Of a stretch of DNA of 64,000 bases, positions 14,741 to 52,620 are shown piece after piece; position 1 is the first letter of the stretch, and every line of letters starts with the position of its first letter. The stretch comes from Annona cherimola (Eukaryota; Streptophyta; Magnoliopsida; Magnoliales; Annonaceae). A program made the translations under genes and the position numbers. Below the pieces are notes generated by a model that made no database searches, was not told the DNA's origin, and worked only from the letters and a program-made list of their open reading frames with translations. The stretch covers positions 59,958,008-60,022,007 of the forward strand of contig CM059973.1 in NCBI GenBank assembly GCA_030490835.1, written 5' to 3'.

Positions 14741-14836
14741 CTGACGAATTTCGACGTGGATGATTAAGTGGTTCGTGTGCTTGTAGCAGTTGCAAACCAA
14801 GTGATCTGTGAATCTTCTTCTCTCTTTGTGGGTTTG

Positions 14837-25673: not shown

Positions 25674-25875
25674 TGTAGACAAAATAAAGATATATCTTGC
25701 AAAATTGAGCAAGTTGGTGCATTATGTAATTTATATAGAGTTTGTAAACAATTATAAATAGTGAAACTAAGTAACCCTAAATGCGATTGAATAGGGTTTA
25801 TCTCGGTGGAGTAGGTTAAAACCGAACCATGTAAATTTGTATCTTTTTTACTTGTGAATGTTATTTTTCTCAAGA
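25674..25875 (+). repeat. 5' LTR of the Copia element
   Basis: 202 bp. It starts TGTAGACAAAATAAAG and ends TTTTTCTCAAGA. The primer-binding-site remnant TGGTATT follows directly at 25876. Divergence from the 3' LTR is spread evenly. Confidence 0.88.
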
Positions 25876-25882
25876 TGGTATT

Positions 25883-26322: not shown

Positions 26323-26327
26323 GTATT

Positions 26328-27031
26328 AGAGCAGACTTAATGAAATTCTTCTCAATATGGACATTAAGCTTCTTCAATTGGCCGCTGCAAAATCCTTGCG
26401 CATAAGATTTTAAGCCGCCATCACATTGTTTCAGATTTTCCGCATGCGCTGCTTCAGATTTTAGTTTGTTTGTTGCGCGTCAGATCTTTGGTGAACCTCG
26501 GCTTCGGATTTTTTGCCATCCTTTGACCGAATAACATCATCCTTCGAGCAAGGAGAATTTTTTTTCCTTTCGCGTTAAGCCATACCAAGCTGCCTTCAAT
26601 GCTTCCATAACCGTCTCCATCTCTTGGTATCTGCGCCAAATTTCAGCACATCAATTTGTGTCAAACAGGCGCACCACCAGGTCCACCACACATAATTTTG
26701 CCGCAGCAACGCACACACGAATTTGCCTTCAACGCACAAATTCATGGGGGCCTCCTGTGGACGTCTTCAACAGATCTTGCTCACACACGGATTTTGTCTC
26801 AATTTTGTCTTCAACAGCAATTTGATACCGAGATACATCTGCAGCTTGAATTCTACACACCTGCCCCGCACGAATTCTTGGCATCACAGATCTTGTTCTA
26901 TGAAACTTGACGCCACAATCGCCCGTTGTTTTCGCCACTAATCAAATCAGGGAATCTGCTAGTCTTCTGTTGAAAGATAAGTATCCAGGTATTTCTGTTT
27001 CATACTAGTACTATTTCTTTAACTCGATTAC
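26328..27031 (+). other. Copia untranslated leader
   Basis: It starts with AGAGC, the rest of the split primer-binding site. Short frames on both strands have no recognisable domain. It runs to the gag start codon at 27032. Confidence 0.5.
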
Positions 27032-27922
27032 ATGACTACTACTATGGGCAACAATGACACTAATATGAAGTTAATTACCACACTGTTGAATGGAAAAAAT
27101 TACCTACCAACAGCTCTTGCCCTTAGTGGAAAATCAAAGCTTGGGCATATGACTGGTAAAATTAAGGTTTCCAAACCAGAAGATTCTAATTTTGAAGAAT
27201 GGTTAGCTATGAATAATCTATTAATGACTTGGTTATTGAATTCAATGGAACCACAAATATATGAGATTTTTGCTTACTTCAGAAATGCTAAGAACTTGTG
27301 GGATTCTCTTAAAGAGGTGTATGGTCAAGAAAATAATGCCTCTAGAATCTTTGAACGTCAATAAAAAATTGCTTGCGTAGAGCAACAGTCTGAATAATCT
27401 TTTGTTGAATATTTGAGATTTATGAAGAAACGTTGGGATGAACTTAGACAATACTATCCCCCTGACGGAAATGGTAGAAAACTATTTACGCAAAGAAGAA
27501 CAAGACTACTTTTCAGTAATTAGTTAGATTAAAATCTGAATATGAAGATCTTAAGAGAAATATTAATGAGCCTATCACTTCCCTCATTCTCAAATGTTTG
27601 TGCAATCATTCAAAGGGAACAAACAAGAAGATGAGTAATGAAATAAGAAAATAGGACAGAAATTGAAAGTCATGCGTTGGCAATTAAATCTAACTTTAAA
27701 GGACCTACCCACTACGGCGGAAGAGGATCAAGTTCTCTGCGAGGAAGAGGATGGAGCAGAGAAAATTGTTCATACTGTGATCATTGTAATAAACTAGGGT
27801 ATGTTAAAGACTGTTGTTGGGTTTTATATCCTCATCTAAGGTCCTCCCAAGCTTATAATAAAATAGCAGCGCAAGTCAGCATTCCTCCTTCTCTAAGTGT
27901 GATTGAAAGTCTAGTAAAATAG
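27032..27922 (+). pseudogene. Copia gag remnant
   Basis: The ATG at 27032 opens a 110-codon frame with gag features of the UBN2 type: LLNGKNYLPTALALSG, then EEWLAMNNLLMTWLLNSM and KNLWDSLKEVYG. A stop at 27362 breaks it. A zinc knuckle follows near 27767-27820 (CDHCNKLGYVKDCC), in which the usual His is Tyr, then WVLYPHLR. Several frame breaks separate the pieces. Known role of the family: nucleocapsid. This copy is not functional. Confidence 0.85.
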
Positions 27923-28004
27923 CTCTAGCTTCTTATGCAATAGACCGCTATGACTGATGCTCCTAATTCTACTTAGGACTCTTCCATATCCTGGTACGAC
28001 TCTA

Positions 28005-31000
28005 TCACTTTTTTCTCACAGTGATGGTTTGGTGATAGATTATGGTGCTATTGATCACATAAGTGGGAACATTATTTTCCTAACTAAAGTCTACTCAAAA
28101 CCTACAACGTCTCCAATCACCGTTGCAAATGGACAAAAGATTCCTATTAAAGGAATTTAGAAACTCAACTACTCTCATACATTTCTGATGTTTTATTTGT
28201 TCCATCATTGACTTTCAACTTATTATCCGCTAGAAAAATTACTAATGAGTTGAATTGCAATATTGTTTTCTCTCTCAACTCCATGATTTTTCAAGACAAG
28301 GCCATGGGGACGAAGATTGGTGAAGGAAAACTTAGTCAAGGCATTTATATCTTGGATGATTTACAAAAGACTTTTCTTGGAAAGAAAAATGCAGATCTCT
28401 CATTACTATGACATACAAGATTGGGATACTCATCTAATCAAATATTGCATACTTTTGATTTGTCAATTTTAGTCAACAAATGTGAAGTTTGTCATTTCTC
28501 CAAACAACATAGACTACCATTCCCAAAACGTTCTAGTTTTTTTAATGAATTTTTTGAGTTAGTTCATTCAGATGTTTGGGAACCTGCTCCAATTGACTCT
28601 TTGAGAGGGTTATAAATATTTTGTAACACTTATTGAAGACAAGTCTTGCTCCATGTTGATATATTTGTTGAAATCCAGAACCGATGTTTTGCATGCTTTT
28701 CAGGACTTTCATAAAATGGTTTTAACAAAATTTGGTTTTCCACTAAAGGTACTGAGAACTGATAATGACAGTAAATATGTCAATTACTCCTTTTCTTCTT
28801 ATCTTCAATCCATGGAATTATTCATCAAACCTCCTATCTCGGCACACCCCAACAAAATGGGATCGTTGAAAGGAAAAATAGACATATACTGGAAGTAACT
28901 AGAGCCTTGTTGTTTCAAATGCATGTTCCCAAACATTATTGGTCTGATGCTATTCTCACTAGCTGCTACCTTATTAATCGATTGCCGCGTCGTATATTGA
29001 AATTCCAGTCCCCTCTAGAAATGTTACAAGGAAGAAAACCTGACATTTTTCACCTTTGTGCTTTTGGTTGTTTTTGTTATGTTTTCATTCAAAGTAGTGG
29101 CAAACTTGATTCTCATGGAAAAAATTGTATCTTTCTTAGTTATTCTTCTACTAAAAAAAGATACAAATGTTATGCCCTAGATATAAAAAAGGTTTTCTGT
29201 CTCTAGGGATGTTTCATTTGTTGAGAATCAACCTTTCTTCCAACCACAGGATTAAATTTAGGGGGAGAATATTAAGAGGGAATTTGTCCCCACACCATTT
29301 CCATTAATAGTTAATGAAGAGCCATCAGAACCAACTGTGAGAGAAGAAGATCTCCTGAAGATCCCGTGGCTCTTCCTCGCATTTCTTTACAAATTTCAAG
29401 ACCACCTGCAAGACTGCAAGATTTTTATGCTTATCATGCTATTGTGTTTCTTATTTAAGATTATATATGCTATGATAATATTTCGATCACTCACTCTGCT
29501 TTCTTAACTAACATTGATTCTTACAAGTTTTCGAGAAGTTATTACTATGTCAAAATGGAAAATTGCTACGAAAGAAGAACTTAAAGCTTTTGATAAAAAT
29601 CGTGCATGAGATATTGTGGAACTGCCAAAAGAAAAAAGACTAGTGGGTTATGCAAATGGGTATAGAGAATTAAATATAACAAAGATGGACCTATAGAAAG
29701 ATACAAAGCCAAACGTATAGCTAAAGAATTTACTCAAACATATAACATTGACTATAAAGATACTTTTGCATCAGTTGTTAAGATGAATACCGTCAAAATT
29801 TTAATATTTGTAGCTATAAATTGTTGATGGTTTCAAACATATAACATTAACTATAAAGATATAAAACTAAATATAAAGAAGATGGATCTATAGAAAGATA
29901 CAAAGCCAGACTTATAGCTAAAGGATTTACACAAATATATGAGATTAACTATAAAGATACTTTTGCACCAGTTGTTAAGATGAATACCGTCAGAATTCTA
30001 ATATCTATAGCTATAAATTGTTGATGGTCTCTATTTCAGATGGACATAAAAAATGCCTTTTTGTAGGGAGATCTAGAAGAAGAAGTGTATATGAAGCTTC
30101 CTCTTGGACACCAGCTAGAAGAAAAAAATCATTTAGTATGCAAACTAAATAAAGCGCTATATGATTTGAAGTAGTTTCCCAAAGCATGGTACAATAAACT
30201 TAGTACTGCACTTATTGAGTTTGGTTTTGTCAATGCACTTTAGATTTTTCAATATTTGTGAAAAGATTTATCTTAATTTATGTTGATGACATAATTATTA
30301 TTGGGAATGACAATGCTGAAATTTCATATCTCAAAAGATATTTCAGCAAGAAATTTGAAATGAAGGATCTAGGTAAGCTTATATATTTTCTAGGAATTGA
30401 AATTATTTACTCTAAGAAAGGTCTATTCTAATGTCAAAGAAAATACACTCTAGATCTTTTGAAGGAGACTGAAAAACATGGGGCAAAACCAATTGATACT
30501 TCAATGGATTATACTACTAAATTTATTAAAGCAAGTGAACTTTTAGAAAATCCTGGAAGATTTCAGAGACTTGTGGGAAAACTAATATATCTTAGTGTCA
30601 TTAGACCAATTATTTCATATGTAGTGAGTTTTGTTAGTCGTTCTCCTACTACCGAACACATGAGGATGGCGGATCACATTCTTTATTATTTGAAATCCTG
30701 TCCAGGTAAAGGAATATGGATAAAATCACATGGTCATACTAATATTGCTCTTCGTATGGAAATTCTTGGATATACAGATGCAGATTGGGTAGATCTGGAT
30801 GATAAAAAATCAACCATAGGATACTACACCTTTGTTGGTGGAAATCTTGTAACGTGGAGAAGTAAAAAAACAAAGTGTTGTGGCAAGATCAATGATTGAA
30901 GTAGAGCATAGGGCCATGACTTCTACAACAAGTGAACTAATTTAGTTGAAATCTATTTTACAAGAACTGAGCTTAAACACACAAAAGCTAATGAAATTAT

Positions 31001-31239
31001 TTTGTGACAATCAAGCAGCAATACATATACCATCAAATCTAGTTTTTCATGAAAGAACTAAACTTATAGAAGTTGATTGTCATTATGTTCGAGACAAAGT
31101 TCAAGCAAAGATTGTTGAAACTCCATATATAAGAAGCATTGATCAACTTGCTAACATCTTCACAAAAGCATTACTAAGAAGAAACTTTGAATATATATTA
31201 GAGAAAATTGGTTTCATAGATATTTATTCACTAACTTGA
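28005..31239 (+). pseudogene. Copia pol remnant (protease, integrase, RT, RNase H)
   Basis: Order of domains: protease near 28030 (IDYGAIDHISG, with Tyr for the Ser of the DSG site); GAG-pre-integrase at 28200-28600 (CEVCHFSKQHRLPFPKR); integrase at 28620-29200 ([21 protein letters not shown]) with a frameshift at the third catalytic region; RT from about 29640 with the YVDDIIIIG catalytic motif at 30279-30305; RNase H from 30760 (YTDADWVD) to 31239 (FCDNQAAIHI). In-frame stops and shifts are frequent. A 160-bp segment of the RT is duplicated in tandem (29664-29830 and 29865-30027). Confidence 0.9.
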
Positions 31240-31246
31240 GGGAGAG

Positions 31247-31447
31247 TGTTGACAAAATAAAGGCATATCTTACAAAATTAAGTAAGTTGGTGCATTGTGT
31301 AATTTATATAAAGTTTAAAACAATTATAAATAGTGGAACCAGGTAACCCTAAATGAGATTGAATAAGTTTTACCTTCATGGAATAGGTTAAAACTGAACC
31401 ACATAAATTTCTGTCTTCTTTACTTGTAAATGTTATTTTTCTCAACA
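31247..31447 (+). repeat. 3' LTR of the Copia element
   Basis: 201 bp. It starts TGTTGACAAAATAAAG and ends TTTTTCTCAACA. The last base touches the kinase coding fragment. Confidence 0.9.
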
Positions 31448-36264: not shown

Positions 36265-37790
36265 TGTTGGTCCCGAGTTTATGGCAAAATTCAAGAGGGG
36301 AGGGGAGAATTGAGTTCTTAAAAATTATTTCAGTGTATTAGTTGTAACCCCTTTGTAAACTAAGTCTGTTTGAATGAAAAACGTAGATAATAAGATAGCA
36401 AGTAGAGCAAGCAAAAATAAATACAAAAGATTATAGTGGTTCGGGACAACCCTCCTTACTCCACTCCTCCAAGAACACACCATTGTCTTTTTAGGTTCTA
36501 CTATACCAATGAAAATATAATTAGAACACTTGCTCTCTTCTAGATTGCAGCTCTAAGGGACCTTAACAACTTTTGCACAAGTAGATAACAAGTCACGCTC
36601 CAACCACACGCTACTTGGCCTTTACTTGGTCTTAATCTCCAATATCAAATAAAATGGAATCACAGATAAAAGAATGAAAACAGTATTCTACACATTACAG
36701 TTGTGTATGCCGATTTTCAATTCATGGAAGAACTTGTAAAATGATTGAATGGATGTACACTTTAGCACTTGAAGTCAAAAAGTAAAGTTCACCTTGTAGG
36801 TCTCCTTAATGAGCACTTGAATGCTGGAAAGTTGAAAGGTGAAGCTTACTTAATTGCTCTTTCTAGACTTTTCCTTTCCATTGACATGCATTAAATAGGA
36901 GATGAGTAAATTTGAACGTTTAGTGGTAGATAACATGTGTTTAATGCGCCACGTTCAAAATTTTTTGACCATTACGACTCAATTCGCACTTGGAGTCGAC
37001 ATCGAGTACGACTTCGATCTTCAGCTTTTCAGTCAGGTTCCGTTTCAGGTCAACTTGATCTTAGACTTGGCCCAAGTCGCAGATGAAGTTGACTTGGATT
37101 GCGACTTCACTATCTACTTGGTTCATTGGAACCTTGACACAGTGCGATCTTGATCAATGTGTATAATTTTTCTTGTTTCTTCATGATTCATCTTCATAAG
37201 TTTTCACTTGTATATGTGGATGTATATGTGGGCTTTTAAAACTTCTTGAATATTAAATTTGGTCAAGATCTTTTGAGCATTTTTGAATGATCTTGTTTTG
37301 GATCTTAAGTTATGATAGTACAATGTTTCTTTAGTTAAACTTATCATCCTTGAGCTTGAAATTTCATGATTTGAGCTTCATCTTCCAAGTTGAATGCTGG
37401 GGTCGACTTGGTTTGTAACTCCACTCAAGTCTCATGTCTGAGTCGATTTCATGTGGAACTTTATCTAAGTCATATGTCGGAGTCGACTTCGGTTGCGACT
37501 TGACTCTGTCAAGTTTAGCTTCGGACACCTGAAGATACCTCAAGTCACTGACGAAGTTGACTTGGGTTGCGACTTCATCTAAGTCGCATGTGAAGTCGAT
37601 TTTGGTTGCGACTTCTCTTGTTTATGAGTCCGCATTGTTAGCGCTGTCGAAAAATGCTCCTTTGAAGTTGATGCTAGAGTTGACTTTAGTATCGACTTGA
37701 CTTAAGTCGATGCCTGAGTTGACTTGGCGTGCGACTTGATCTGCCAAAATTTGAATCTTAAAGTATCTAATTCTTAATACATCTCAACAC
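36265..37790. repeat. Long repeat copy 2 (LTR-like), splits Copia pol
   Basis: It starts TGTTGGTCCCGAG and ends near ATACATCTCAACA. It separates the YIEKIL part of a minus-strand Copia pol (36264 leftward) from the YVDDML-like RT part (37800-38060). Direct repeat of 33852-35300. It contains many AGTCGACTT / TTGCGACTT words spaced irregularly at 20-60 bp. No target duplication could be confirmed. A solo LTR is the simplest reading. Confidence 0.45.
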
Positions 37791-37799
37791 ACATGTTAG

Positions 37800-38200
37800 T
37801 GCCTTAAAATTTCTCAAATTAAGTTGTTAATCATCAAAATATAAATTGTACTTGATTTGCCATTCATTTACAACAGAGAATATATTATCATTTTTTATAA
37901 TCTTGATGCCAATAATAGCATTCGTATTGCTTATATCTTTCATGTCTAAATTAACTAGTAAGAAAATTTTAATTTCTTTAATGATATCAATATTAGTAGA
38001 AAAATGAGCATATTATCTACATAAAAATATTAGTAACACATCTATTAGCATTAAATTCATTATAAATTAATGTTCCTATTGTTAATAAAAACTTATTTAT
38101 TGGTGATTCGAAAAAAGATATTATCTTTTTCTCTGAAAATTTTATTATAAAATAAAAAATTTTAAAATAAGAAAAATAAGAATTTTTATTATACTTTTCT
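37800..38200 (-). pseudogene. Copia pol remnant: RT core
   Basis: The minus strand reads, with shifts, YVDNMLIF, NIDIIKEIKIFL, DMKDISNTNAIIGIKII. These correspond to the YVDDML, MKDLG and LGI(K/E)I motifs of Copia RT. The second catalytic Asp is Asn. It continues downstream at 36264 beyond the long repeat. Confidence 0.55.
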
Positions 38201-39530
38201 AACTAATTAAAATAAATATAAACACATATTTAGTAAAGTCCACATTGGCCACACATATTTGTAAAATGAAAACTCAACTTTAGAATATCAAAACAAGTAA
38301 AATAAGGGATATCATTGCATATAGCGAACATAAAAAATTTCATGGATTGAGATATAAGGAAAAATGCATCCTAAAGTTAAAAAAAAGCAAGTAAAAATAA
38401 ATGGTATATGTCTTCAAAACATAATAATAAATAAATGATACATAAACAAGTATTTTCTTAGATAATGGACTAATTAAAATTGATATTGCTCCTAGACTAT
38501 CATGAAAGGCTAACACTTAGTAGCCCCACCGACTATATTATTAACATGGTAAGATATATATAAGATTAATCAAAGTTGATATTTTTATTAGACCATCGTA
38601 AAAGACATGCATTGAGAACTGCTTAACCTGATATTTTTATTAGACCATCATAAAAGATATGCGCTGAGAACTGCTTAACCTACCTCATCTCATGCATTCT
38701 AAATCAGAGATTTAGAATTAAATTTTTCAAAAATGGATATTGTAGAAAAGAATTGTTTCAGGTTCCCATCTTGTGCATGCCTAGGACAATTAAAAAATAA
38801 AAATTAAGCAGCAATATATAACATGGCAAGGACATGGTAGGATCTTAGATTTTCTCGTAATGCTCCATATAGATGTGTTGAATCAATTAGCAGCTTATGG
38901 AAGGCAAAATCAAACAGTGAAATGATCTTGATTTTAACCAAATGAGTTAGGGTTTTTCCTAAAATTTCTATTCCTCTTAAGTATTTATAAAAAATTTAAA
39001 CTAATAAGTTAAATACATCCAATAATACAATGCAATATCTTACGTACAAAGAGGAGATGCTTGTGGAGGGGCAAAACCTATCTTCAACTCTTGATTGCAA
39101 AGAACTGGGACTAAAGACTCTTGGAAAGTGAAAAAGAAAGGAAAAGATTGATTTTCAGCATGAGCTTAATCAAGAAAGTGGTAGCCTATTGTTCCGGCCT
39201 CGTGAGAAATCATTAATTTATCCATTCGGTTTTTGGTTAAATGTAAAATTGTTTTCCCTGCGGCTTTGAGAATAAATGCTTAATTAATTTTCTAGCAAAA
39301 TTTAAAGCATCCAATTCTTTAACCGAGTCCGAAAAGTACATCACAGAAATATTTTGCATTGTGTTCCACATTCTGATTTTACATCTCTAACGAGAAAACC
39401 CTTGATTAAAAGAGCTGAATACAATGGTCCATAAAAAAATGCTTAACAATAATGAAGTGCGTAGAAGATCCTTCTACGTCTTTACAAGTGCACGAAAAAT
39501 CGTGTCTAACAAAAATATAAAGATAAATGA
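38201..39530. other. Intergenic DNA with one 51-bp direct duplication
   Basis: At 38578-38680 a 51-bp unit (TATTTTTATTAGACCATC to GAACTGCTTAACC) occurs twice in tandem with a few differences. Nothing else was recognised in this AT-rich region. Confidence 0.5.
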
Positions 39531-39534
39531 GTAC

Positions 39535-39680
39535 ACTTCGCCCCGCGCCGTGACTCGAATGTGAGGTATATGACGCCACGCGCCATATCTTTAATATGAA
39601 GTACATGACGCCGCGCGCCATGACTTAAATATGAGGTACATGACGCCGCGCGCCATGTCTTAAATGTGAGTTTACGCTTA
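39535..39680. repeat. 35-bp tandem repeat, about four copies
   Basis: Units beginning TGACGCCRCGCGCCAT start at 39571, 39606 and 39641, with a more diverged one before. GC-rich CGCGCGCC alternates with TTAAATATGAGGTACA. First of a series of adjacent tandem arrays. Confidence 0.85.
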
Positions 39681-39754
39681 GCCCGTCGACCAGCGATGAC
39701 TCGGTTTTGGGAACTAGTGAGGGGCCTGTCGGCTACACTAGTGACCTTACACAG

Positions 39755-39875
39755 CAAACTAAGTGCGCTCTTAGCTTCTGGATTTACACAGCAGACCAGC
39801 GTGTCCCGCTTTCAGCTTCTGTATTTGTACAAGAAACCAGCGTCTCCCGCTTTCAGCCTCTGGATTGAACAATTG
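39755..39875. repeat. About 41-bp tandem repeat, three copies
   Basis: The unit (CTTCTGGATTTACACAGC, ACCAGCGTSTCCCGCTTTCAG) repeats about 2.5 times with substitutions. Second array of the series. Confidence 0.75.
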
Positions 39876-39949
39876 GGTGGTTTTACCAAGAAATGGATTC
39901 AACCGGATTTTAAAAGTATGTTTGGGTCATTTTTGACCAATTAAAAAGG

Positions 39950-40455
39950 TTTGGGCCCAACTGGGCTTGTTGACAAGAGTTTGGGCCATCTTTGGCTTTT
40001 TGGAGAGTTTTTGGGCCATCATGGGCTTTTTGAAAAGTTTTGAGCCATCTTGGGCTTTTTGGAGAGTTTTGAGCCATCTTGGGCTTTGTGGAGATTTTTG
40101 AGCCATCATGGGCTTTTTGGAGAGTTTTGAGCCATCTTGGGCTTTTTGGAGATTTTTGAGCCGTCTTGAGCTTTTTGGAGGGTTTTTGGGCCATCATGGG
40201 CTTTTTGAAAAGTTTTGAACCATCTTGGGCTTTTTGGAGATTTTTGGGCCATCTTGGGCTTTTTGGAAAGTTTTGAGCCATCTTGGCCTTTTTGGAGATT
40301 TTTGGGCTACCTTGGGCTTTTTGGAGAGTTTTGAGCCATCTTGGGCTTTTTGGAGAGTTTTGGGCCATCATGGGCTTTTTGGAGATTTTTGGGCCATCAT
40401 GGGCTTTTTGGAAAGTTTTGAGCCATCTTGGGCTTTTTGGAGATTTTTGGATGCC
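39950..40455. repeat. 29-bp tandem repeat, about 17 copies
   Basis: Unit GAGCCATCTTGGGCTTTTTG plus GAGAGTTTT, with 17 occurrences of the GGGCTTTTTGG core at a spacing close to 29 bp. Because 29 is not a multiple of 3, each reading frame passes through all three phases. Both strands stay open across most of the array (197 codons on the minus strand from 40503), since no phase of the unit makes a stop. The translations are low-complexity and I do not regard them as genes. Confidence 0.9.
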
Positions 40456-40521
40456 TTTGAATATATATGTGTATTTTGATATATTTTTATAGAAAATACA
40501 CATACATTTATTTTTATTTTT

Positions 40522-41330
40522 AAAGGAGGAAATATACTTAACCCGTGTGTCAATTCAACCCGCCAGTCGGGGAGTATCCATGTTGGGAAAAGTGATTTTC
40601 GAAAATAATATATATGTATATATTTATTTATATATATATATAATATACACATATATATATTTAAAGGAGAAAATATACTTAACCCGTGTGTCAATTCAAC
40701 CCGCCAGTCGGGGAGTATCCACGTTGGGAAAAGTGGTTTTCGAAAATAATATATATGTATATATTTATTTATATATATATAATATACACATATATATATT
40801 TAAAGGAGAAAATATACTTAACCCGTGTGTCAATTCAACCCGCCAGTCGGGGAGTATCCACGTTGGGAAAAGTGGTTTTCGAAAATAATATATATGTATA
40901 TATTTATTTATATATATATAATATACACATATATATATTTAAAGGAGAAAATATACTTAACCCGTGTGTCAATTCAACCCGCCAGTCGGGGAGTATCCAT
41001 GTTGGGAAAAGTGGTTTTCGAAAATAATATATATGTATATATTTGTTTATATATATATAATATACACCTATATATATTTAAAGGAGAAAATATACCTAAC
41101 CCGTGTGTCAATTCAACCCGCCAGTCGGGGAGTATCCACGTTGGGAAAAGTGGTTTTCGAAAATAATATATATGTATATATTTATTTATATATATATAAT
41201 ATACACCTATATATATTTAAAGGAGAAAATATACTTAACCCGTGTGTCAATTCAACCCGCCAGTCGGGGAGTATCCACGTTGGGAAAAGTGGTTTTCGAA
41301 AATAATATATATATATTTATATATATATAT
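40522..41330. repeat. 139-bp tandem repeat, six copies
   Basis: Units start AAAGGAGAAAATATACTT at 40663, 40802, 40941, 41080 and 41219, exactly 139 bp apart, with a first unit of 141 bp at 40522. Each has a GC-richer half (CCCGTGTGTCAATTCAACCC, GTCGGGGAGTATCC) and a TA-rich half. Copies differ at only a few positions (TCCATG/TCCACG, CACATA/CACCTA), so expansion was recent. The 113-codon frames repeated every 139 bp are by-products of the array. Confidence 0.95.
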
Positions 41331-41339
41331 AAGAAAGAA

Positions 41340-41530
41340 ACTCTCTTTTTTTTTTTAACTAAAAAATATATCTAGAGAGCTCACGTTCTCTCTTTTCTTG
41401 AGCGCGGGAGAGCTCCACCCGGTTGAGTCCTCTGCTCAAGTTCTCTCTTGTTCTCCTCTCTGTCCTTTGTTGCCTTTGCCGGATGCGGCTATTTATAGGC
41501 TTTTTGCCGGGTCCGGGATGGGTTCCGCGG
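41340..41530 (-). promoter_or_regulatory. Promoter- or LTR-like sequence on the minus strand
   Basis: On the minus strand a TATA box CCTATAAATAGC (about 41486-41497) is preceded by the GCGGAAC-rich array and followed by AG-rich leader-like sequence (GACAGAGAGGAGAACAAG). That is the layout of a plant LTR U3-R region. No second copy is present, so whether this is an LTR or a captured promoter is open. Confidence 0.35.
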
Positions 41531-41700
41531 CTGTGATGCAAGCTCACGCGGAACCGTCTTCCCGCGGAACTGCCTTCCCCGCGGAACTGCTTTCCCCGCG
41601 GAACTTCGTTTGCTTGGGCGCCAAGCTGCACTTGCGCGGAACCGCTTTTCCCGCGGAACTGCTTTCGCGTAGATCCAATTTCTGTAGACTCGCGGAACCA
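41525..41700. repeat. Short GC-rich array of GCGGAAC words
   Basis: At least seven copies of GCGGAAC(T/C), often as TTCCCGCGGAACTGC, spaced about 16-20 bp in the best part (41565-41610) and more loosely to 41700. Two open frames cover it but carry only the repeat (GKAVPR, SSAGKAV). Confidence 0.75.
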
Positions 41701-42058
41701 CGACGGCAATAGTAGCCACCGCGCTTTCGTCCTCCCCAAGAATCCATCCGGCAGGACCTGGTCCAGGTCCGCATCGACAAGACCCACGAACAGCTCCTTC
41801 ATTCGCCGTTGCATCCTTTGCTGCTGCTCCGGCTTCTTTCTTTTGCACTTTTTCTCTCCGTAGGCAAAGAATCTCTCTCCGTGGCTTGCATGCACCACTG
41901 GGTTCGTTTTTCTCTGCCTCGGAATCTCATCCCTTCTCGATCTGAAACACCATCGCAAGCTCGGAGATTCTCCACCGATGGAGCAGGCACGGGCGCTGGA
42001 TCCGGCTTCTCGTTCTTCGCAGCGAGCTTCTTCTGCTCAGCGGCGATCCATCCCCGCA
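41700..42058 (-). pseudogene. GC-rich captured fragment, source not recognised
   Basis: Minus-strand frames contain IAAEQKKLAAKNEKPDPAP and FVGLVDADLDQVLPDGFLG, which look like real plant protein wording rather than random sequence. I cannot name the source. It directly joins the RETICULATA-RELATED fragment at 42060. Confidence 0.45.
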
Positions 42059-42059
42059 T

Positions 42060-42478
42060 AGGATATTATTCAAGCACTTCAAGGCCACCACTGACGCCTT
42101 GAAAACCACCTCCGGCAGCGTCTTTGCCAGCAGGAATTCCAACCCGTTCAGCGTCTAATACCTCAAGCTGCTGCTAAGCCCATATGCGCAGCCCACGTCG
42201 CTGCATTCATCAGCGTCGGCGGAGGCTTGTTGGGCGACTCGAACATGCGGCTCGTCGGCGAACTGGCAAAGATCCCAGGGACGGACGGTGGCGACGCCCC
42301 GGCCGTGGGCGCGAGGAGGTACATCAGCACGAAGTTGAGGATCGAGCCGACGACGAGCGTCGAGAAGACAAAATCCAGTTCGTTGAGGCCGAAGTTCGGC
42401 CGGGAGGCCATGTCAAGCCGAGACGCCGATGAGCTCCTCCATCGGGACCCTGAAAGGGAACTGCGGGTCAGCGGGACC
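42060..42478 (-). pseudogene. RETICULATA-RELATED (DUF3411) gene fragment
   Basis: The minus strand reads MASRPNFGLNELDFVFSTLV, then GSILNFVLMYLLAPTAG and PGIFASSPTSRMFE. It jumps to SPNKPPPTLMNAATWAAHMG and, after a frame break, to LEFLLAKTLPEVVFKASVVA. These are conserved blocks of the chloroplast-envelope RETICULATA-RELATED family in the right order, with the transmembrane middle missing between MFE and SPNK. This exon-skipping pattern and the stop/shift mark a captured fragment. Confidence 0.9.
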
Positions 42479-42631
42479 GCCATCCGTTAATGAAGGCTCC
42501 GATCGGGCCGAAACTTGCCGGCTGAGACCGACTCCCATCTGCTTTCAACCGGTAAGCGGTAGCTGCCGCAGCTCGTCTTCTCTCTCTGTACAGCATTCAA
42601 ACCCAGCAGCAAAACTCAGAGGTTGTAAAAG

Positions 42632-42790
42632 ATGACGAAAGAAGTGCTTGCAGATGCGGAGCAGCCGCATGGCAAGGACTACAGCGACCCTCCTCCGGTC
42701 CCGCTCTTCGACCTCACCGAGCTCAAGCTCTAGTCCTTACGCAGCGCGAGGACCTCGTGCGGGAGCAGCGCACCTGCCGCGATCCTCGCC
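42632..42790 (+). pseudogene. PIP2 aquaporin N-terminal fragment with 5' UTR
   Basis: The ATG at 42632 opens MTKEVLADAE, then KDYSDPPPVPLFDLTELKL, the cytosolic N-terminus typical of PIP2 plasma-membrane aquaporins (the family has KDYxDPPPAPL.D). The Trp codon expected next is TAG at 42731, a nonsense change; TCCTTACGC after it still resembles WSFYR coding. The leader before the ATG (about 42545-42631) looks like a captured 5' UTR. Only the first tens of codons are present, before any membrane segment. Confidence 0.85.
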
Positions 42791-42811
42791 TTCCCCTGAC
42801 GAACGTTGTTT

Positions 42812-42950
42812 CAGGTACGCGGCGAAAAGCTCTGCGTCGTGCTTTTGGAACAGCTTCTTGTAGTTCTTCATCTCAACGGACGCGACGCGACTGTACGGCA
42901 GCCTCGCCCAGCGATTTGCGCTCATGTATACCTCTGGCAGTTGGAGAATC
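42812..42950 (-). pseudogene. DUF2828 protein fragment
   Basis: The minus strand reads LPEVYMSANRWARLPYSRVA, then SVEMKNYKKLFQKHDAELF. This matches the conserved VYMSANxWxxLPYNRVASVAMKNYK block of plant DUF2828 (TROVE/vWA-like) proteins. Only about 45 codons are present. It is placed head to head with the subtilase fragment and tail to tail with the PIP2 piece. Confidence 0.8.
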
Positions 42951-42975
42951 CGGTGCAGGGGAACTGACACATCCT

Positions 42976-43657
42976 TCCGCTGTTGACCGGGTCGTGGCTG
43001 ATGGGGTGGACGTGCTTTCCATCTCGCTGGGCGGTGAGGTTGCCTCCTACTACCGTGACAGCTTGTCGGTAGCAGCGTTTGGCGCCATGGAGAAGGGGGT
43101 GTTCGTCTCTTGCTCCGCAGGAAATGGGGCGCCGGAGCCCGTCAGCCTTACCAACGTTTCGCCGTGGCTCACCACCGTGGGCGCAAGCACCATGATCAGA
43201 GATTTCCCGTCGGCGGTGAAGCTAGGCAGCGGCCAGGTCCTAGGCGGCGTCTCGCTCTACAGAGGCAGGTGTAGGCTGGTTGCTGGGGAGCAGTACTCCC
43301 TGGTCTACCTGGGCGGGAACTCCAGCAGCCCCGACCCAAGGGCGCTGTGCTTGGAGGGAAAGGTGGATCCGCACGTTGTCCGGGGGGAAGATCGTGATAT
43401 GCGATGGGGGAATCCGCCCGAGAGTGCAGAAGGGCCAGGTGGTGAAGGACGCAGGGGGTATCGGCATGGTGTTGGTCAACACCGCAGCGAACGGCGAGGA
43501 GCTGGTCGCGGACAGCCATCTCCTCCCAGCGGTTGCAGTGGTGAGACGGCTGGGAAATTCATCAAGCGCTACGTCCTCGCCACCCCGAGTCCGACCGCGA
43601 CCCTTACGTTCGCCGGCACCAAGCTGGGAGTCCAGCCGTCCCCCGTGATAGCTGCTG
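42976..43657 (+). pseudogene. Subtilase (SBT1-type) fragment with two frameshifts
   Basis: The + strand reads ADGVDVLSISLGG, SVAAFGAMEKGVFVSCSAGN, NVSPWLTTVGAS (the Asn-region and oxyanion part of plant subtilases), then [20 protein letters not shown]. The frame then shifts to KIVICDGGI and [20 protein letters not shown] (PA domain), and back to [20 protein letters not shown] and [10 protein letters not shown]. The Asp, His and Ser catalytic regions are absent. The high residual identity to the family suggests a fairly recent capture. Confidence 0.9.
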
Positions 43658-43689
43658 ATCAACTGCTTTGGGTGAGAAGACGTAGATAG

Positions 43690-44050
43690 CATGCTCTGTG
43701 CTGCTGGAACAGACGCGGAATTCAAGCGAGCCGCCTGTGGAGAGAAGCACGGTTGATCATTCAGAAGTTGCTGGGCATCAAAATCAGGCGACATGGAGAA
43801 ATCGTCAGCAGGTATGTCCCTTGCGCTGAGAGAGGATCTCAGCCAGCTGGATTGCATATTGCTCCCAGGAAGATGGAGAGTTGGAACACTCGGCTGCGGC
43901 CAAGCCATGGCCGAATGGGACATCCCGTTCGCAAAAGGCGACATAGGAGTGAATGGGGTAGGAGACATGACGGACACGGACGAGGGTGAGCCAGGAAGAG
44001 CGACCATGGTGAGATCAGGCACGCCATGTTTCCTCACCACGAGGGTGAGA
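43690..44050 (-). pseudogene. CCCH zinc-finger protein fragment (C-terminal part)
   Basis: The minus strand reads SPTPFTPMSPFANG, then WPQPSVPTLHLPGSNMQSSW, LRSSLSARDIPADDF and ARLNSASV. The VPTLHLPGSNLQSSRLRSSLSARDIP block is characteristic of ankyrin-CCCH zinc-finger proteins of the AtC3H30/56 type. The zinc fingers and ankyrin repeats are not included. It stands opposite to the subtilase and RPS15 pieces. Confidence 0.85.
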
Positions 44051-44105
44051 GGCTTGTTAGAGATGCCGTTCCCGTAGGCGTTGGGCTTCAAATCATCGCC
44101 TGGTC

Positions 44106-44381
44106 ATGACGGATGTGGATGTGGATGTTGCGCCGGGGCAACCAAAGAAAAGGACGTTCAAAAAGTTCGGCTTCAGAGGCGTGGATTTGGATGTGCTGAA
44201 GCGTTGCGGGATCATGAGTCGAGCCAACGGAGCTCTGAACGTGTGCTTCGAGGGAGCGGAGAACTTGCCCGGGCGGCGGCGGGTCCAAGTACGGCACGAG
44301 CATCGAGAAGGAGTGGGCCAAGGATCCGGCGCGCGATATCATCTTGGCGTACATGCAAAACGAGGAACCTCTAACGCCTGA
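44106..44381 (+). pseudogene. RPS15 / nitrate reductase fusion ORF
   Basis: The ATG at 44106 opens 91 codons. The first 29 (MTDVDVDVAPGQPKKRTFKK, FGFRGVDLD) are the start of cytosolic ribosomal protein S15. The next codon enters nitrate reductase sequence in frame ([27 protein letters not shown]) before a one-base shift changes frame at about 44270. The junction at 44192/44193 is exact and in frame. Whether the ORF is transcribed is unknown; I class it as a chimeric pseudogene. Confidence 0.85.
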
Positions 44382-44472
44382 CCATGGGTTTCCCATCCGT
44401 GTTATCATCCCCGGATTCATTGGCGGGCGGATGGTGAAGTGGCTGAAAAGGTTTATCGTCACGACGGTGTAG
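44193..44472 (+). pseudogene. Nitrate reductase Mo-domain fragment
   Basis: After VLKRCGIMSR and [10 protein letters not shown] in the first frame, the reading continues in another frame as [54 protein letters not shown] and LKRFIVT, with a stop at 44470-44472. This is the molybdopterin-binding domain of plant nitrate reductase. About 90 codons are present, with one frame break. It is the last recognisable capture, and AT-rich DNA with (TTA)n follows. Confidence 0.9.
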
Positions 44473-44599
44473 TCGTCTCTTTTTTTTTATTATTATTATT
44501 ATCATATAAATATATCTCATCACCTATGAACAAATATCTTTTGATAGTGTGAGAACTAATTTAAGGGAGGGTGGGAATTGTGGGGGAAAAAGGCAAAGT
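44473..44599. other. AT-rich edge of the captured mosaic
   Basis: T-run and TTATTA repeats at 44480-44502. No inverted partner of this edge was found near 41.34 kb, so the class of the carrier element is unknown. Confidence 0.4.
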
Positions 44600-45500
44600 G
44601 TTGGTGAGTACTAGGAAACTAAAGTTGCTATGTTCAAGGTAAAGCTAAGAGCTTGAACAAAATGGCTTTCATTGCAAGAAATTGTCATTGGCTTAAGAAT
44701 CTGTGGTCAATTCAAAATCTCTTAGACTCGGTTAGAAAATAAACTCTCACAATATTGTTTGCATGTAAAACAAAGAGGACAACTCAAGAAACGGAGAGGG
44801 TGAGAAGACAATCAAGGTTTGATAGCGGCTTCTTGATTGCTCGCAATGACAGAGGGGAAGGGCTAACTCTCTTTTGGAATTTTGAGATGGATGTCACTAT
44901 TAGAAGTTTCTCTCAAAACCACATCAAAGCATAGTTTAATTGCCTAGGCAGAATTTATCTTTGGTAGTTCATGAGTTTCTATGACAATTACAAAGTGGTT
45001 AGGAAAAGAGAATCACAAAATATTATCAAATAGCTCAAGCACCAACATACAACTCTATGGCTAATTACGAGAGATTTTAATGAAGTATTAGGTATGCTTA
45101 AATTTAAAATATATAAACTATGGCTAGAATGTCAAATGGATATTTTCAAAGAGGCTTTGGACTTTTATAACCAATTGAATCTTGATTTTTTCAATCCTCC
45201 CATAATATGGAGGAATAATAGGAGAGGGTTTGCTAGGGTTGAGGACAAATTTAACAGAGGAGTAGCATCACCTGATTGGCTCAATTCTTTCCCCTTTCGC
45301 TAAGCTAATATATCTTTCTATTGCTTCCTCAAATCATTATCCCATACTGCTCACTTTGAACTTAAAAATGAATAGAAGGAAACCATTAATAGAGTTCAAG
45401 TATGAGTTATTTTAGGCAAGAGATAAGGAGACTCAACATTATTTATCAGACTTGAGCTAAGGAAAATGTGGGACATGCTTTGGTTTGTGCAAATTTGAGA
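44600..45500 (+). pseudogene. LINE (L1-type) endonuclease domain remnant
   Basis: In the + direction, with shifts and stops: FDSGFLIARNDRGEGLTLFW, then ITRDFNEVLG, DFFNPPIIWRNNRRGFARVE and DKFNRGVASPDWLNSFPF. These are the WN, GDFNEI-like, TW-NNR and ERLDRG motifs of plant LINE apurinic endonuclease in order. The catalytic Gly of GDFN is Arg. The RT domain does not follow; other elements occupy 45.5-51.1 kb and a matching LINE C-terminal region lies at 51.13 kb. Confidence 0.7.
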
Positions 45501-47503
45501 TGGAAATTAAAACTGTGCAGCATCCAACTTTTAAGATGGAATAAAAGTAAAAAAGTGAATATTGCAAAAGTGACAATTGGATATTTTATACCCTTATGGC
45601 CATGAAAATTTTTATTCAATAAGAGATTTTTGGTTTAAATCATTGATATAATTTAGATCCTTTGTTTTGGGGGAGTTTTGGGACTGTATTATAAAAATTT
45701 TGTACTTTAAAATCTATTGCATACGTATGGACTAGTATAGTCTGTTGAACTATAAAAAATTATCACTATCTTTTATCAAAAGTTCCAGCTATGGCAGGAA
45801 AGATTTCTCCTCCTTACTCGTCTTTACTTCCGTCTTAGATTCGGCACTAACAAGAGACTCCAAATAAAGCTCAGCCATCCAAATTAATGATAGTGAAAAA
45901 CCTTGAGGTCCGACTGTAGTCTCTTCCTCAGATCCACGCAATTAACCAATCAATCTGAGCAAGATCTGCGAATCTGATATGGATGACAATACGTTGAGGG
46001 TCGCTCATGAAGAGCAGTGTCGGTCTGAGCATTCGTAGCGTTAGACTTCAGGTTCCAGCATCACGTGTGCTTAGACCACGTGATTAGATTGCTAAGTTGT
46101 ATTTTAGCTATATAAATAGTTGTTAGTCAGTCATTTGGTTTTGTCGTGAATTGTTTTATGTTTCTTGAATTTTCAAGAACTTGTTGGAGATGTTCCCTCC
46201 AAAAGCGTTACCCCATTTGATTGGCAATTTATTAGGCGGAATATAAAGAGTTTGAATCTATCCATGACAGGTTCATATCAAAGGTAATCAGAAGGGGAGA
46301 CTCGTTCCATCCGCCAATACTGGAGAAGGTTGAAAAGAAGTAGGAGAGAGAAAGATCGTGAGAGGGAGGATGAGGCTGCAAGCAGCAAACCTGACAGTTG
46401 CTCCTACCCAGATTCAGCACTTCAAGCAGGTAGATGCAATTGACTGTAGGCAAAATCCCATTTTTCTCCAGCAGCATCATCTTCTCAGGTTGCGACTCCA
46501 TCACATTCACCAGATCACGGCTGCCAATGGTCCAGTTAAGACGTCTAGATTTGTGTAGTGCGCCTTCCACCACCCTTGCTTTCTCTAACCGATGCGCCTT
46601 TGCTTAGATCCACTGTGAAGTCCACCTCCAACAGCGTGCAAAATCTCACTAAGAAAATCACTAACTAGCTTGCGCGCAATCCAACCAGCATGTGCATATT
46701 GCACACAATGCAAATTAACCCAAGTTGTCCAAAATACACAGCAAGGTTGCGCAGCCCAATTTATTCAGATTGTAGTCCGTTTTCTCTCCCCCACTTGCAT
46801 ATCACGATTCAATAAAAGGAGACTGCCCTCAAAACTTAGATAGATCTAATTTTCACTTCCAACTTTAGTTTTCAAGCTCATGGGTCTTGAGAAACTTTGG
46901 GAGAGAGAAGATCTTCTTCACGTCAGTCATCTAGATTTATTTTCTTTTGCTTCATTAATTTTAGATTTTTAATTTTTTGGTTTTAGTTGGATTTTATTTA
47001 TAGTAATTTTTATTGCACTTTAATTCTTTGTTGTAATTTTGTTTGGATATTTAGTTTAATAATTTTTTTCTAAATAATTCAAACATTATAGCCTCTATGT
47101 GAATTTGACCCATCTTGCCATTATTCTTCGCTATAATTAGTTGTTAGTTTTAAGTGATTTAGTATAAATTGAGAATAGATTGATGACCTTGGGTTCCCAA
47201 CGACAAACCCTAGGTTGTACACCAATTTTTGACTCCATTACAGGGGAGACGCATAAAAGTTTTGATTTTTTTCTCTTTTAGCATATTTTAGATTTTTCAT
47301 TTTTTTAATCCTTGTTGATAGTTTATTTCTTTTCTCTACTCATTCTATTTTCTTCTATTCTCTTATTGTTTTTAATTTTCATCTTTTACACTCTTTATCA
47401 TTAGTGTGTGCACGATAGAAAATCTCTCAATCTACAATTAGTTGAACCAAACCCTTAGATTAAAAGACTTTTTAGTTAAGCAAAAAGAACACAAAAAACA
47501 CTC
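45501..47503. other. Retroelement leader/LTR-like DNA, not resolved
   Basis: A plus-strand TATA-like GCTATATAAATAG at about 46108 and a following CTTGAATTTTCAAGAACTTG suggest an LTR U3-R region. The region before the Athila-like gag would then be its LTR and leader. Neither LTR ends nor a primer-binding site could be fixed. A 113-codon minus-strand frame at 46232-46573 has no recognisable domain. Confidence 0.35.
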
Positions 47504-49085
47504 ATGGCTAAAAACCCAAATCCCACTACTAGAAAGATGAAGGAATTTTCATTCCTACTAAATGTAACCCTTCATCTTGCATTTAGCAACCAGAAAGAGA
47601 CATTTCGCTATGAGATCAAATTTAGTAGTATTCAAACGCTCCCATTTTTCTATTGTAAAACCAATGAAGATACATATAAGCATATTGATGATTTTTTTTT
47701 AAATTCGCTCAATAGTGAAGATTCAACACCTCACTGATGATGCCCTAAAATTGAAATTATTCCCTTTTTCATTGAAAGACAAAGCTAAATATTAGTTAGG
47801 TACTTTAGGAGACTCCATCACCATATGGGTAGAGATGCAACACGAATTTTTAAAGAAGTTCAACCTTATCGGCCAGACTAATACAATGCAAAAGACAATT
47901 ACAAACTTCACATAAACTTCAAGAGAAAAAATTTATAAAGCCTGAGAGCGAATGAAGGAATTGCTGAGGAAATGCTCACGTCAACATGAATTTTTAAAGA
48001 AGTCCTACCTAATCGGCCAGACTAATACAATGCAAAAAGTGATTGCAAACTTCACATAAACTTTAGGAGATCAAATTCATGAAGCTTGAGAGTGAATGAA
48101 GGAACTGCTGAGGAAATGCATACATCATGAATTATCTAAATGATAGATTATTAGGCTTTTTATGAAGGCTTGATAAATCAATATCAAAACATAGTGGATG
48201 CGGCTTGCAGAGGCTAATTTTTAAGCAGAAGTGAGAATGAGAACTATGAACTATTTGAGAAGCTCAACCAGAACTCAATCAATTGTGAACTCAACTATGA
48301 ACATATAAGAAGGCAGGCCTTTATGAAGTAAGTAACTACACAGAACCCAGTTCCAGCACAAACATGTAATTCATCGTGCAACAACTCGAGAAGGTGAACC
48401 GGTTATCCCACAAACTTGATCAGGTACTAACCATCCAACCCTCAAATTCTTACCTCACTTCATCCCAGCCTCCTTAAGAGGTCTTTTCTCTGTGTGCTAG
48501 CCCTTCCCACCTCTTCAATGAATGTCCCATTGCAATCCAACTCCTAGAACAAGTTCAAACTACACAATGGATGCCCAACACAAAAAATAACACATACTTG
48601 AATACATACTACCCTAGTTGGTAGAATCATTCTAATTTTTCTTGAAAAAACTAGTAAACTCAACCTCAAATAGCCAACACATCAACCCCGGTAACTCCTA
48701 AGTTGTTACCTTACAACCAAACTTTCAAGGAACTGCTTATCCTTCTTGAGGGCCACAAAGCTACTCTCAACCTAATTACTCACTACCTCAACCACAGTAC
48801 CCACTAAATTTGATAAAAAAATTTGCACAACTGCAACAATTGATCCTTATTGAACAACAATCCATTTTCAAGTTAGAAAGTAAAATTGGTCAACTAGCAG
48901 AAGCCATTATGAGAAGAGAAATAAGGCACCTTCCCAGCAAACCAATTGCCAACCTAAGAAACCAACTTGTAGGCTTTCAGTCTCAACCAAGCTTGCCACC
49001 ACCAAAATGTCCGCAATTTGAGAATGCTAAAGCCATTTCAACATTATAAAGTGGTAAAATCTTGGAAGATCTCAACAATTCTAAG
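47504..49085 (+). pseudogene. Athila-like Ty3/gypsy gag remnant
   Basis: From the ATG at 47504 the order of gag motifs is seen across shifts: HIDDFF, ALKLKLFPFSLKDKAK-like, WVEMQHEFLKKF, IGQTNTMQK, ERMKELLRKC, FYEGLINQYQNIVDAACRG and SENENYELFEKL. Near the end come SKIGQLAEAIMRRE and AISTL-SGK, a gag C-terminus typical of Athila-group elements. About 146 bp are duplicated in tandem (about 47838-47980 and 47984-48126). No protease or pol follows. Confidence 0.75.
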
Positions 49086-51125: not shown

Positions 51126-52620
51126 GTGTAATGGCATGTGCATTTAAAAGTTGCTGGTGGTCTAGGATTTAGAGATATTCTATCATTTAATATGCTCTTT
51201 TGGCCAAACAAGTGTGATGCCTTCTTGATAATGCTGACCCTCTTTGCTATAAAACTTTGATATCCAAGTATTTTTCAAATGAGAACCTTTCAGAAGTGTA
51301 ATAAGAAACCCATAAACTCATTTACCTAGAATTATATTTTGAAAAACTAGAACCATTATGCTAGAAGGATGCCATTGGAAGATATGAGATGGCAAACAAA
51401 TGAGCTTCTTTAAGGATAAGTAGATGGAAATACAAATATCTAAAGTTGGGCGCTACTGCTTTTAATTTCTATAGATACAAAGGTAAGTCATTTTATTGAT
51501 TATTACTTAAAAACATAGAAGAAAGACCTTATTCTTACGATTACAGGGGAAGCTAGTTAGAACATAATCAACCTGATCAACTGCTAGCCAAATGAGGTGA
51601 AAATAGATGGTATTGGGCTCTTAAACCAATGGGATTTACAGTGTTCTACATATAAAATCATCAAATCGCTGAACCCCCAAGTGAGTATGGGGAGGGGGGT
51701 AGCTAAGATCACGACAAGTTTGTGTAAGTTAAAGTTTCCTAATAAAATTCTGATTTTCTGGTGGAAATTATTTTTCATTGAGATTCTCACTAGACCAAAT
51801 CTAAATAGAAGAGGTATTATTGTGGAGTTTATGTGTTTTTTCTGTAAGGAATTGAGGAGAATTTTAAGCATCTATTTATTCACTATGACAAGGCGTTCGA
51901 GGTAAGGAAAAAGTTTGTTACAAATAAAAGTAATTTCCACTCAAGGGTGACAATCAATTGAATCATTCGACAAATAATTGTAGCAAAAAGAATCGATGAG
52001 TTAGAGATATATTATTTGATGTGCTGGAGGCTCTAATTTTTGAGAAATTAGCTTAGAGGGGAAGAAACTCACTTCTCCAATCTGATGGACTAGTGCGGGA
52101 ATTTTTATGACCAATGCAAGAACGTCAACTTGTTGGTGAGGTCTTTCATTATCGATAATGAATTGATGGCTAGATGGAGAAAACCTAGAGGTGAAAGTGC
52201 TAAAAAAACTATTAATGGTCTTGCAATGCTGCCAGGAATTGCATGGGCTTTGAGGTAATGATGCATGACAGGGAATTTAATTGAAATAAAATGTTGGAAT
52301 TGGGATGAGATAACTAATTTTTTTATAGATGGAAGCACTTTTTGTGTGCTTGAGACTTCAATCAAGAGATCAAAAGGACTCGACAGAGATGAAGATTAAT
52401 TCCCTCGTCTAAATAAATTTTCTAAAAATTGATAGACTATTTCAACCTTGGTGGAAAGTCTTGTTCGGAAAATTTAGTCATGGGAGTCTATAGTAGAAAA
52501 AATCTTCTTTCTTCTTATGCTTTAAGGAGGAAACCAAGTGGCTCGCAGCTTAGTTGATTTTGCATTGACTAATAGTGGTTTTGATATGATGTGGCGGTGT
52601 GTTCTACTGAATCTCATTAT
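51126..52620 (+). pseudogene. LINE zf-RVT and RNase H region remnant
   Basis: In the + direction the fragments AGGLGFRDILSFNMLFW, then KFPNKILIFWWKLFFIEIL, TRPNLNRRGI and MCFFC are the end of LINE RT and its zinc-binding (zf-RVT) domain (W-LKVPNKIKIFLWR, NLxxRGI, CxxC). 52020-52600 fits a very decayed RNase H-like region. It is probably the C-terminal end of the same LINE whose endonuclease lies at 44.6-45.5 kb. Confidence 0.65.

Follow-up and report, generated by a model that had tools for sequence, protein, structure and literature searches.

Gene capture by plant transposons has usually been described for DNA transposons and, where long terminal repeat (LTR) retrotransposons are concerned, as a matter of single transductions. 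A 2026 review of the latter (PMC13317346) covers maize Bs1 with its three host segments, a terminal-repeat retrotransposon in miniature (TRIM) and Rider, and treats BARE-2 and Veju as cases of template switching; in its account of Bs1, the TRIM, Rider and BARE-2/Veju, none is described as carrying a mosaic of host mRNAs in U3. Here, we report on a 64,000-nucleotide stretch of DNA from Annona cherimola (assembly GCA_030490835.1, contig CM059973.1, positions 59,958,008 to 60,022,007 of the forward strand), termed the window in the following, which contains at least nine partial host genes inside a giant LTR. We consider it highly probable that the U3 of this Ty3/gypsy LTR is a changeable mosaic of host mRNAs, which most likely entered through template switching by reverse transcriptase.

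Just as the window does, maize Bs1 and other transducing plant LTR elements feature partial host genes from several sources, but the segments of Bs1 are located inside the element whereas the window family has at least nine in U3, in both orientations and with a content that varies among its members (PMC13317346). BARE-2 and Veju resemble the proposal made here in that template switching brought foreign sequence into the LTR or element and the change then spread; the foreign piece of BARE-2 stems from another retrotransposon, while those of the window family stem from many host mRNAs (PMC13317346). A further parallel is offered by Del elements, which possess a plastic 5' CpG island, GC-rich and variable, in the 5' part of the LTR, the function of which has been left open (PMC4029996). 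The window family likewise has a GC-rich block of variable length and sequence in the 5' part of the LTR, situated upstream of the TATA box. This is a resemblance only, as Del belongs to another Ty3/gypsy lineage, and the terms gene fragment, captured and host gene do not occur in the main text of PMC4029996. Retand/Tat elements share with the window family that they are non-chromovirus Ty3/gypsy elements with large non-coding parts and tandem arrays, but have these arrays and extra open reading frames between pol and the 3' LTR, whereas the arrays of the window family reside in R-U5 and the host pieces in U3 (PMC11963269). Maize Helitrons, finally, also contain many unrelated gene pieces that were gained stepwise and are common to relatives; there, the carrier is a Helitron, while here it is an LTR and the testable pieces are copies of spliced mRNAs (PMC3288121). 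Our searches of an open-access library for host pieces in LTR elements revealed no description of a U3 composed of host mRNAs in this manner, which is not proof of its absence in print.

Results

The carrier of the mosaic

The window carries the solo LTR of a giant Ty3/gypsy retrotransposon at 39190-44522 on the minus strand. Its TG...CA ends (TGTTCC...CATCA), which are common to paired copies with 5-bp duplications of their own, and a perfect CCTAT target-site duplication at 39185-39189 and 44523-44527, recognized by flank comparison, define a solo LTR of 5,333 bp. Element ends and target duplication, which the original prediction had suggested looking for, are thus at hand. Searches of the same genome covered 791,761,211 bp in 1370 contigs, and the block shared with other loci stops at 39190 and, where copies have the outer end in common, at 44522.

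The TATA box of the inferred LTR promoter, CTATAAATA, is situated at 41489-41498 on the minus strand and is kept in 20 out of 20 LTR stretches that hold this region, the window included. The half downstream of it (39190-41488, minus strand) is predicted from the TATA position to represent R-U5 and contains tandem arrays of 35, 41, 29 and 139 bp at 39539-41331; a scan of viral contigs with part of the 139-bp unit yielded no match. Immediately upstream of the TATA box, at 41522-41698, reside eight copies of CGCGGAAC, with 0.14 expected in the whole window, and sister stretches holding the same region have 4-11 copies. At the opposite end, the outer 47 bp of U3 (44476-44522, minus strand) with an A-run in element sense are common to LTRs of elements on contigs C1, C2, C5 and C6. 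U3 spans the sequence between 44522 and a point slightly to the left of the TATA box; the whole mosaic is located within it, between the outermost 47 bp and the TATA box. The order of gag and integrase on the minus strand, described below, and the minus-strand TATA box place the mosaic in U3 and the tandem arrays in R-U5. Bs1 host segments reportedly lie between the LTRs; a host segment in such an internal position was not found here, where the host pieces detected lie in U3 and the internal region has been read in part. The A-run itself (44480-44489, element sense) varies in length and separates the mosaic from the outer U3 end in most of the LTRs read to their ends. It also marks the border between GC-rich and AT-rich sequence in several other sister LTRs and may be a candidate landing site for switching.

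A search of the genome with 41300-44500 gave 831 candidates, 40 of which were scored. Among these, full-length copies with 97-99% identity form pairs on C5 and C2, in the same orientation and with a spacing of 16-17 kb; on C6, the two copies of a pair are about 22 kb apart and the second is interrupted, and C7 has a partial copy. According to searches with two inner stretches, seven LTRs bear the window mosaic, two each on C5, C2 and C6 in addition to the window itself. Perfect 5-bp duplications surround all eight insertions for which both outer flanks were compared, namely, apart from the window, the paired elements on C5 (ATGCA), C2 (CACCC), C6 (CTAAT) and C1 (GTGCC, with a different U3 type) and the single LTRs L016 (ATGTC), L027 (CTGCT) and L028 (ATATA), in each of which the duplication directly follows ...ATCA; in these three, the outer end was located by means of the duplication itself. 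When the right end of L017 was sought in the same manner, no duplication was found and a motif of the polypurine tract side follows instead.

Internal domains were pooled from several elements, no single one of which was read whole. Pfam detects Retrotrans_gag (PF03732) inside the LTRs of the C6 element (L014) and RVT_3 (PF13456, an extra RNase H-like domain) followed by Integrase_H2C2 and rve inside the C5 (L010) and C1 (L019) elements. All domains found have the orientation of the window's minus strand, gag adjoining the 39190 side and integrase the 44522 side. A candidate primer-binding site (PBS), aaTGGTGAACCCGACGT, follows the LTR and a candidate polypurine tract, CCTGAGGGGGCATT, precedes it on the element strand, both proposed by motif. 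An extra RNase H before integrase marks the Tat (Ogre/Retand) lineage. In L010 and L019, PF13456 is immediately followed by H2C2 and rve, which points to this lineage, and the element is probably a Tat-like Ty3/gypsy retrotransposon. Over U3, divergence amounts to 1.2% within the C5 pair, 1.0% within the C2 pair and 0.6% between the window and one of the C5 copies; the six mosaic LTRs compared (the interrupted C6 copy was left out) differ by 0.6-2.3%. Given this low divergence between copies, the mosaic insertions look younger than the captures.

Composition of the mosaic

Within 2.8 kb, the mosaic comprises at least nine host-gene pieces on strands - - + - + - - + + from left to right, with a GC content of 54-63% versus 30-37% in the adjoining flanks. 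The original prediction had described a dense mosaic of seven partial host genes on a mobile element, GC-rich compared to its surroundings and with some pieces starting in a 5' untranslated region (5'UTR) or at a start codon. All seven are present on the strands given, as judged by Pfam, by phmmer against PDB and, for the CCCH piece, by a protein match in Asimina triloba; the difference in GC content is real and PIP2 and RPS15 indeed begin in this way. The mosaic is even denser than supposed, since a UDP-glycosyltransferase (UGT) and a DRP4C piece had been overlooked, and the orientation, thought to be mostly alternating, alternates in part only. The donor loci that were to be sought in the same genome were identified for eight of the nine pieces, with 92-98% identity over the aligned parts; the donor search left out the UGT piece.

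The UGT piece lies leftmost (about 41692-41800, minus strand) and is weak by itself (E 0.001), while a longer copy in sister LTR L027 reaches E 2.9e-8. Next to it, at 41811-42052, comparison within the genome revealed a module that recurs in L017 and in the C1 pair L018/L019, LTRs whose U3 regions are of other types; on the minus strand, this module codes for a stretch rich in lysine and proline. The piece at 42053-42540 (minus strand) has a 150-bp internal deletion, matches RETICULATA-like in Pfam (5.6e-18) and was identified by protein search as RETICULATA-RELATED 3 (RER3); its donor is located at C2:6.565 Mb, with 93-96% identity over the aligned parts and 89-90% when gaps are included. A short module at about 42541-42578 belongs to a stretch (query 6-64 or shorter parts) that matches about 18 other loci. 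It is followed by the 5'UTR, start codon and N-terminus of a PIP2 aquaporin at 42579-42735 (plus strand; plant aquaporin N-terminus in PDB, 3e-7; donor C2:114650655-114650814, 95%), a DUF2828 piece at 42733-42980 (minus strand; Pfam 1.7e-21; donor C3:90.977 Mb, 93.5%) and a piece of an SBT1-type subtilase at 42969-43655 (plus strand; Peptidase_S8 1.3e-6 and PA domain 1.2e-9 in Pfam, subtilase in PDB 3e-29; donor C4:30.967 Mb, 95.2%). The piece of a CCCH zinc-finger protein at 43646-44000 (minus strand), which also has an internal deletion, has no Pfam match and is 90-92% identical to a CCCH protein of A. triloba in a protein search (donor C5:45.165 Mb, 97.6%). It is joined by a piece of dynamin-related protein 4C (DRP4C) at 43990-44073 (minus strand; donor C2:6359176, 95.2%), by RPS15 at 44071-44198 (plus strand; uS19/RPS15 in PDB, 1.7e-8, the match beginning at the start methionine; donor C4:16489976, 92.1% when spliced) and by an exon-1 piece of nitrate reductase (NIA) at 44189-44475 (plus strand; Oxidored_molyb 2.5e-20 in Pfam, nitrate reductase in PDB 5e-19; donor C1:99961589, 94-95%).

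The donors are thus spread over five large contigs, C1 to C5. That of DRP4C belongs to a local gene cluster with six close matches in about 60 kb (C2:6340633-6402093). In the protein searches, Asimina provided the best match for CCCH and DRP4C and the second-best for the RETICULATA piece; the top 120 matches of a first, composite search were mostly RETICULATA-RELATED proteins, plus two CCCH proteins, and NCBIfam gave zero matches for four pieces. Stops and frameshifts are present in the mosaic pieces.

Donor genes and spliced mRNAs

The exon-intron structure of donors was compared for the eight window pieces with a known donor and, among the sister pieces, for PP2C and V-ATPase-a. In its donor gene, RPS15 has the 5'UTR and ATG in exon 1, followed by an 84-bp GT...AG intron and exon 2; the window piece fuses 5'UTR and ATG to exon 2 exactly and without this intron, each exon being about 93% identical to the donor. 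Three exons are fused in the PP2C piece of a sister pair on C1 (L019), where GT-AG introns of 97 and 78 bp are gone, and three in the V-ATPase-a piece of L034, where GT-AG introns of about 1.1 and 1.4 kb are gone. Introns are precisely absent in all cases (five of five GT-AG introns across the three pieces found to span one). Relative to the element, the RPS15 and PP2C pieces lie in antisense and the V-ATPase-a piece in sense orientation. The intron-spanning pieces derive from spliced mRNA, and the absence of introns excludes direct genomic capture from the RPS15, PP2C and V-ATPase-a genes.

Variation of U3 across the family

The U5-side end of the LTR returned 1513 first-look candidates, which makes a high copy number of the family probable; 40 of them, among these the window, were scored and show 94-100% identity. 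Other members of the family have different host genes in U3. One group of LTRs was picked via likeness to the window mosaic and is thus a biased set: L017 contains the N-terminus of an ethylene receptor (1.6e-32), L019 PP2C (2.5e-42), L016 EXO70 (8e-10), L024 a 634-bp NIA piece, L026 a CCCH piece and L027 UGT, with L028 being of the same type (96%). Six further LTRs, L032 to L037, were picked out of the 40 listed by U5-side similarity only. All six have a block of high GC content upstream of the TATA box, and a host piece was identified in five. Syntaxin (5.6e-40) and V-ATPase (9.8e-10) reside in L034, and part of this block also occurs in L032; L037 has a Ras match (5.5e-6), joined by L036 of the same type (96%) and by a match to a P-type ATPase below the Pfam cut-off, and L035 contains an RER3 piece with 90% identity to the donor.

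Several modules recur with the same limits. The NIA pieces of the window and of L024, the latter being longer, share a right breakpoint at the same donor base, and the window and L026 have CCCH pieces that begin at the same donor base. Between the TATA box and 42585, L016 has the U3 of the window; beyond this point, the two differ. The syntaxin and V-ATPase modules are separate in several loci and joined in others, and the PIP2 module was found again at other loci, at least two of them inside family LTRs by position. Shared breakpoints and modules in differing combinations suggest that pieces seem to have been captured once and then recombined between elements.

Junctions between pieces

At all six joins for which both donors are known, the donors share 3-10 bp: three bases at PIP2/DUF2828, five at DUF2828/SBT, ten at SBT/CCCH, five at CCCH/DRP4C, three at DRP4C/RPS15 and four at RPS15/NIA. 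In random joins of the same donors (n=20,000), a mean of 0.70 bases is shared and 6% reach three or more.

Other features of the window

A probable Tubby-like F-box gene with an F-box-like domain (1.1e-7) and a Tub domain (7.8e-77) is located at 14768-21263 on the plus strand. Remains of a copia-type element at 25674-31445 comprise an SH3_retrovirus domain (5.9e-16), a PBS-like TGGTATCAGAG at 26067, a weak copia gag match (5.5e-5, below the Pfam cut-off) and a 200-bp direct repeat (25674-25873 and 31247-31445, 86%). To the right of the LTR, sequence resembling decayed coding sequence of a long interspersed nuclear element (LINE) was noted by eye, and a LINE-like zf-RVT domain, slightly below the Pfam cut-off, lies at 51588-51902 on the plus strand.

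Discussion

Judging from the products, it appears reasonably likely, albeit far from certain, that the element's reverse transcriptase switched template onto host mRNA while U3 was being copied. Within the virus-like particle, the enzyme would switch from U3 onto packaged host mRNAs at homologies of 3-10 bp. A switch in minus-strand synthesis would give rise to a sense piece, and one in plus-strand synthesis, for which the polypurine tract, 47 nt away from the mosaic, provides the primer, to an antisense piece. The next round would copy the new U3 into both LTRs, and co-packaged element RNAs could recombine modules by copy-choice. U3 would tolerate such captures, since nothing in it apart from its outer end and the promoter must be kept.

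A number of points weigh against this scenario. No reverse-transcription intermediate was seen, the switch being deduced from its products. Plain minus-strand switching would yield no antisense pieces, yet about half are of this kind, so that a two-strand or a DNA end-joining step is needed, and the internal deletions in RER3 and CCCH could reflect later end-joining. Among the eight window pieces for which the donor is known, seven fall in an intronless donor stretch and are thus uninformative on splicing. The U3 of L033 (C1:93705100-93710700) is GC-rich, yet has no recognisable host gene. In L026, L032, L033, L034, L036 and L037 the outer LTR end was not located and the limit of U3 was taken from GC content. 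Of two gag-side elements scanned with Pfam, L014 contains gag and L012 gave no match. The junction values are biased to long ones, as the script scored the longest shared run in an interval; it failed to anchor SBT/CCCH and DRP4C/RPS15, and both joins were read from separate alignments.

The main rival retains carrier and mRNA origin and moves the entry to the DNA level: double-strand breaks in integrated LTRs, or free ends of element DNA, would have been end-joined with loose cDNA fragments made by reverse transcriptase, and the result would have spread by retrotransposition. Such patching naturally gives both orientations, is compatible with the absence of introns, and both the junction homologies of 3-10 bp and the internal deletions suit microhomology end-joining. 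Breaks would, however, be expected anywhere in the LTR or the internal region, whereas the GC-rich blocks observed, with the internal region read in part, are situated upstream of the TATA box, and recombination of modules between elements is simpler by copy-choice. We regard cDNA patching as conceivable and, on balance, rather unlikely. An origin as captured genomic DNA in a Pack-MULE, Pack-CACTA or Helitron that inserted in the LTR is very improbable, even though multi-gene mosaics are known from such elements, with 0-12 pieces in maize helA Helitrons (PMC3288121) and five in soybean Tgm-Express1 (PMC1947982). The precise loss of introns refutes it for the three testable pieces unless these derive from retrocopies, and LTR sequence borders the mosaic on both sides. 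The original prediction had left the carrier class open, with Pack-MULEs and Helitrons in mind; TG...CA termini, 5-bp duplications and paired copies instead identify an LTR.

The same prediction had seen no pair of terminal inverted repeats (TIRs), in which it was correct: comparing 37500-41705 with 44440-48500, with 2-, 3-, 5- and 8-11-bp duplications, gave no convincing pair and mostly AT-rich matches, and Pack-MULE TIRs with an 8-11-bp duplication were not found around the pieces. A scan for Helitron 3' ends, and for these only, produced two matches, neither at a boundary; CACTA motifs occur, but none at the boundary and without forming a pair of termini with a 3-bp duplication; and a scan for common PBS motifs gave none at the mosaic boundary. 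A reading of the CGCGGAAC repeats as subterminal repeats of a CACTA element was dropped, as the flanks are the two ends of one LTR; the search of the genome that revealed this also corrected a first impression of left and right flank as unrelated. Read-through transduction of a neighbouring gene is a known capture route in LTR elements (PMC13317346), but it yields one neighbouring sense segment, while the donors here lie on five contigs, C1 to C5, and two spliced pieces are antisense. The absence of introns and the occurrence of spliced pieces in both orientations make it a poor fit and extremely unlikely. Nothing was found in favour of an artefact of the assembly or of a host fusion gene that has been conserved, and the probability of either is negligible in view of independent copies, with seven LTRs carrying the mosaic and the three pairs and the window each having a duplication of its own, and of the stops and frameshifts in the pieces.

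If template switching was the route, it is tempting to go one step further, although we consider this step doubtful: the family might in this way draw on host mRNAs to rebuild the upstream LTR half continually, the outcome being kept because a gene-like, GC-rich cover helps. Such a cover could possibly offer a fresh promoter context, make a poor silencing target or lead to small RNAs hitting essential host genes. If this were true, the variable GC-rich blocks of other giant LTRs, e.g. those of Del, would share this origin.

What is new in the A. cherimola family is that the LTR itself contains host-mRNA pieces, many of them in each copy and in either orientation, with differing sets in sister copies. 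This suggests where the variable GC-rich block that giant LTRs have upstream of the TATA box may come from, an idea that is testable in grasses, and provides a natural record of apparent template switching by reverse transcriptase with donors known at base resolution. Pieces of host genes in sense and antisense orientation could, moreover, feed small-RNA pathways and mislead gene annotation.

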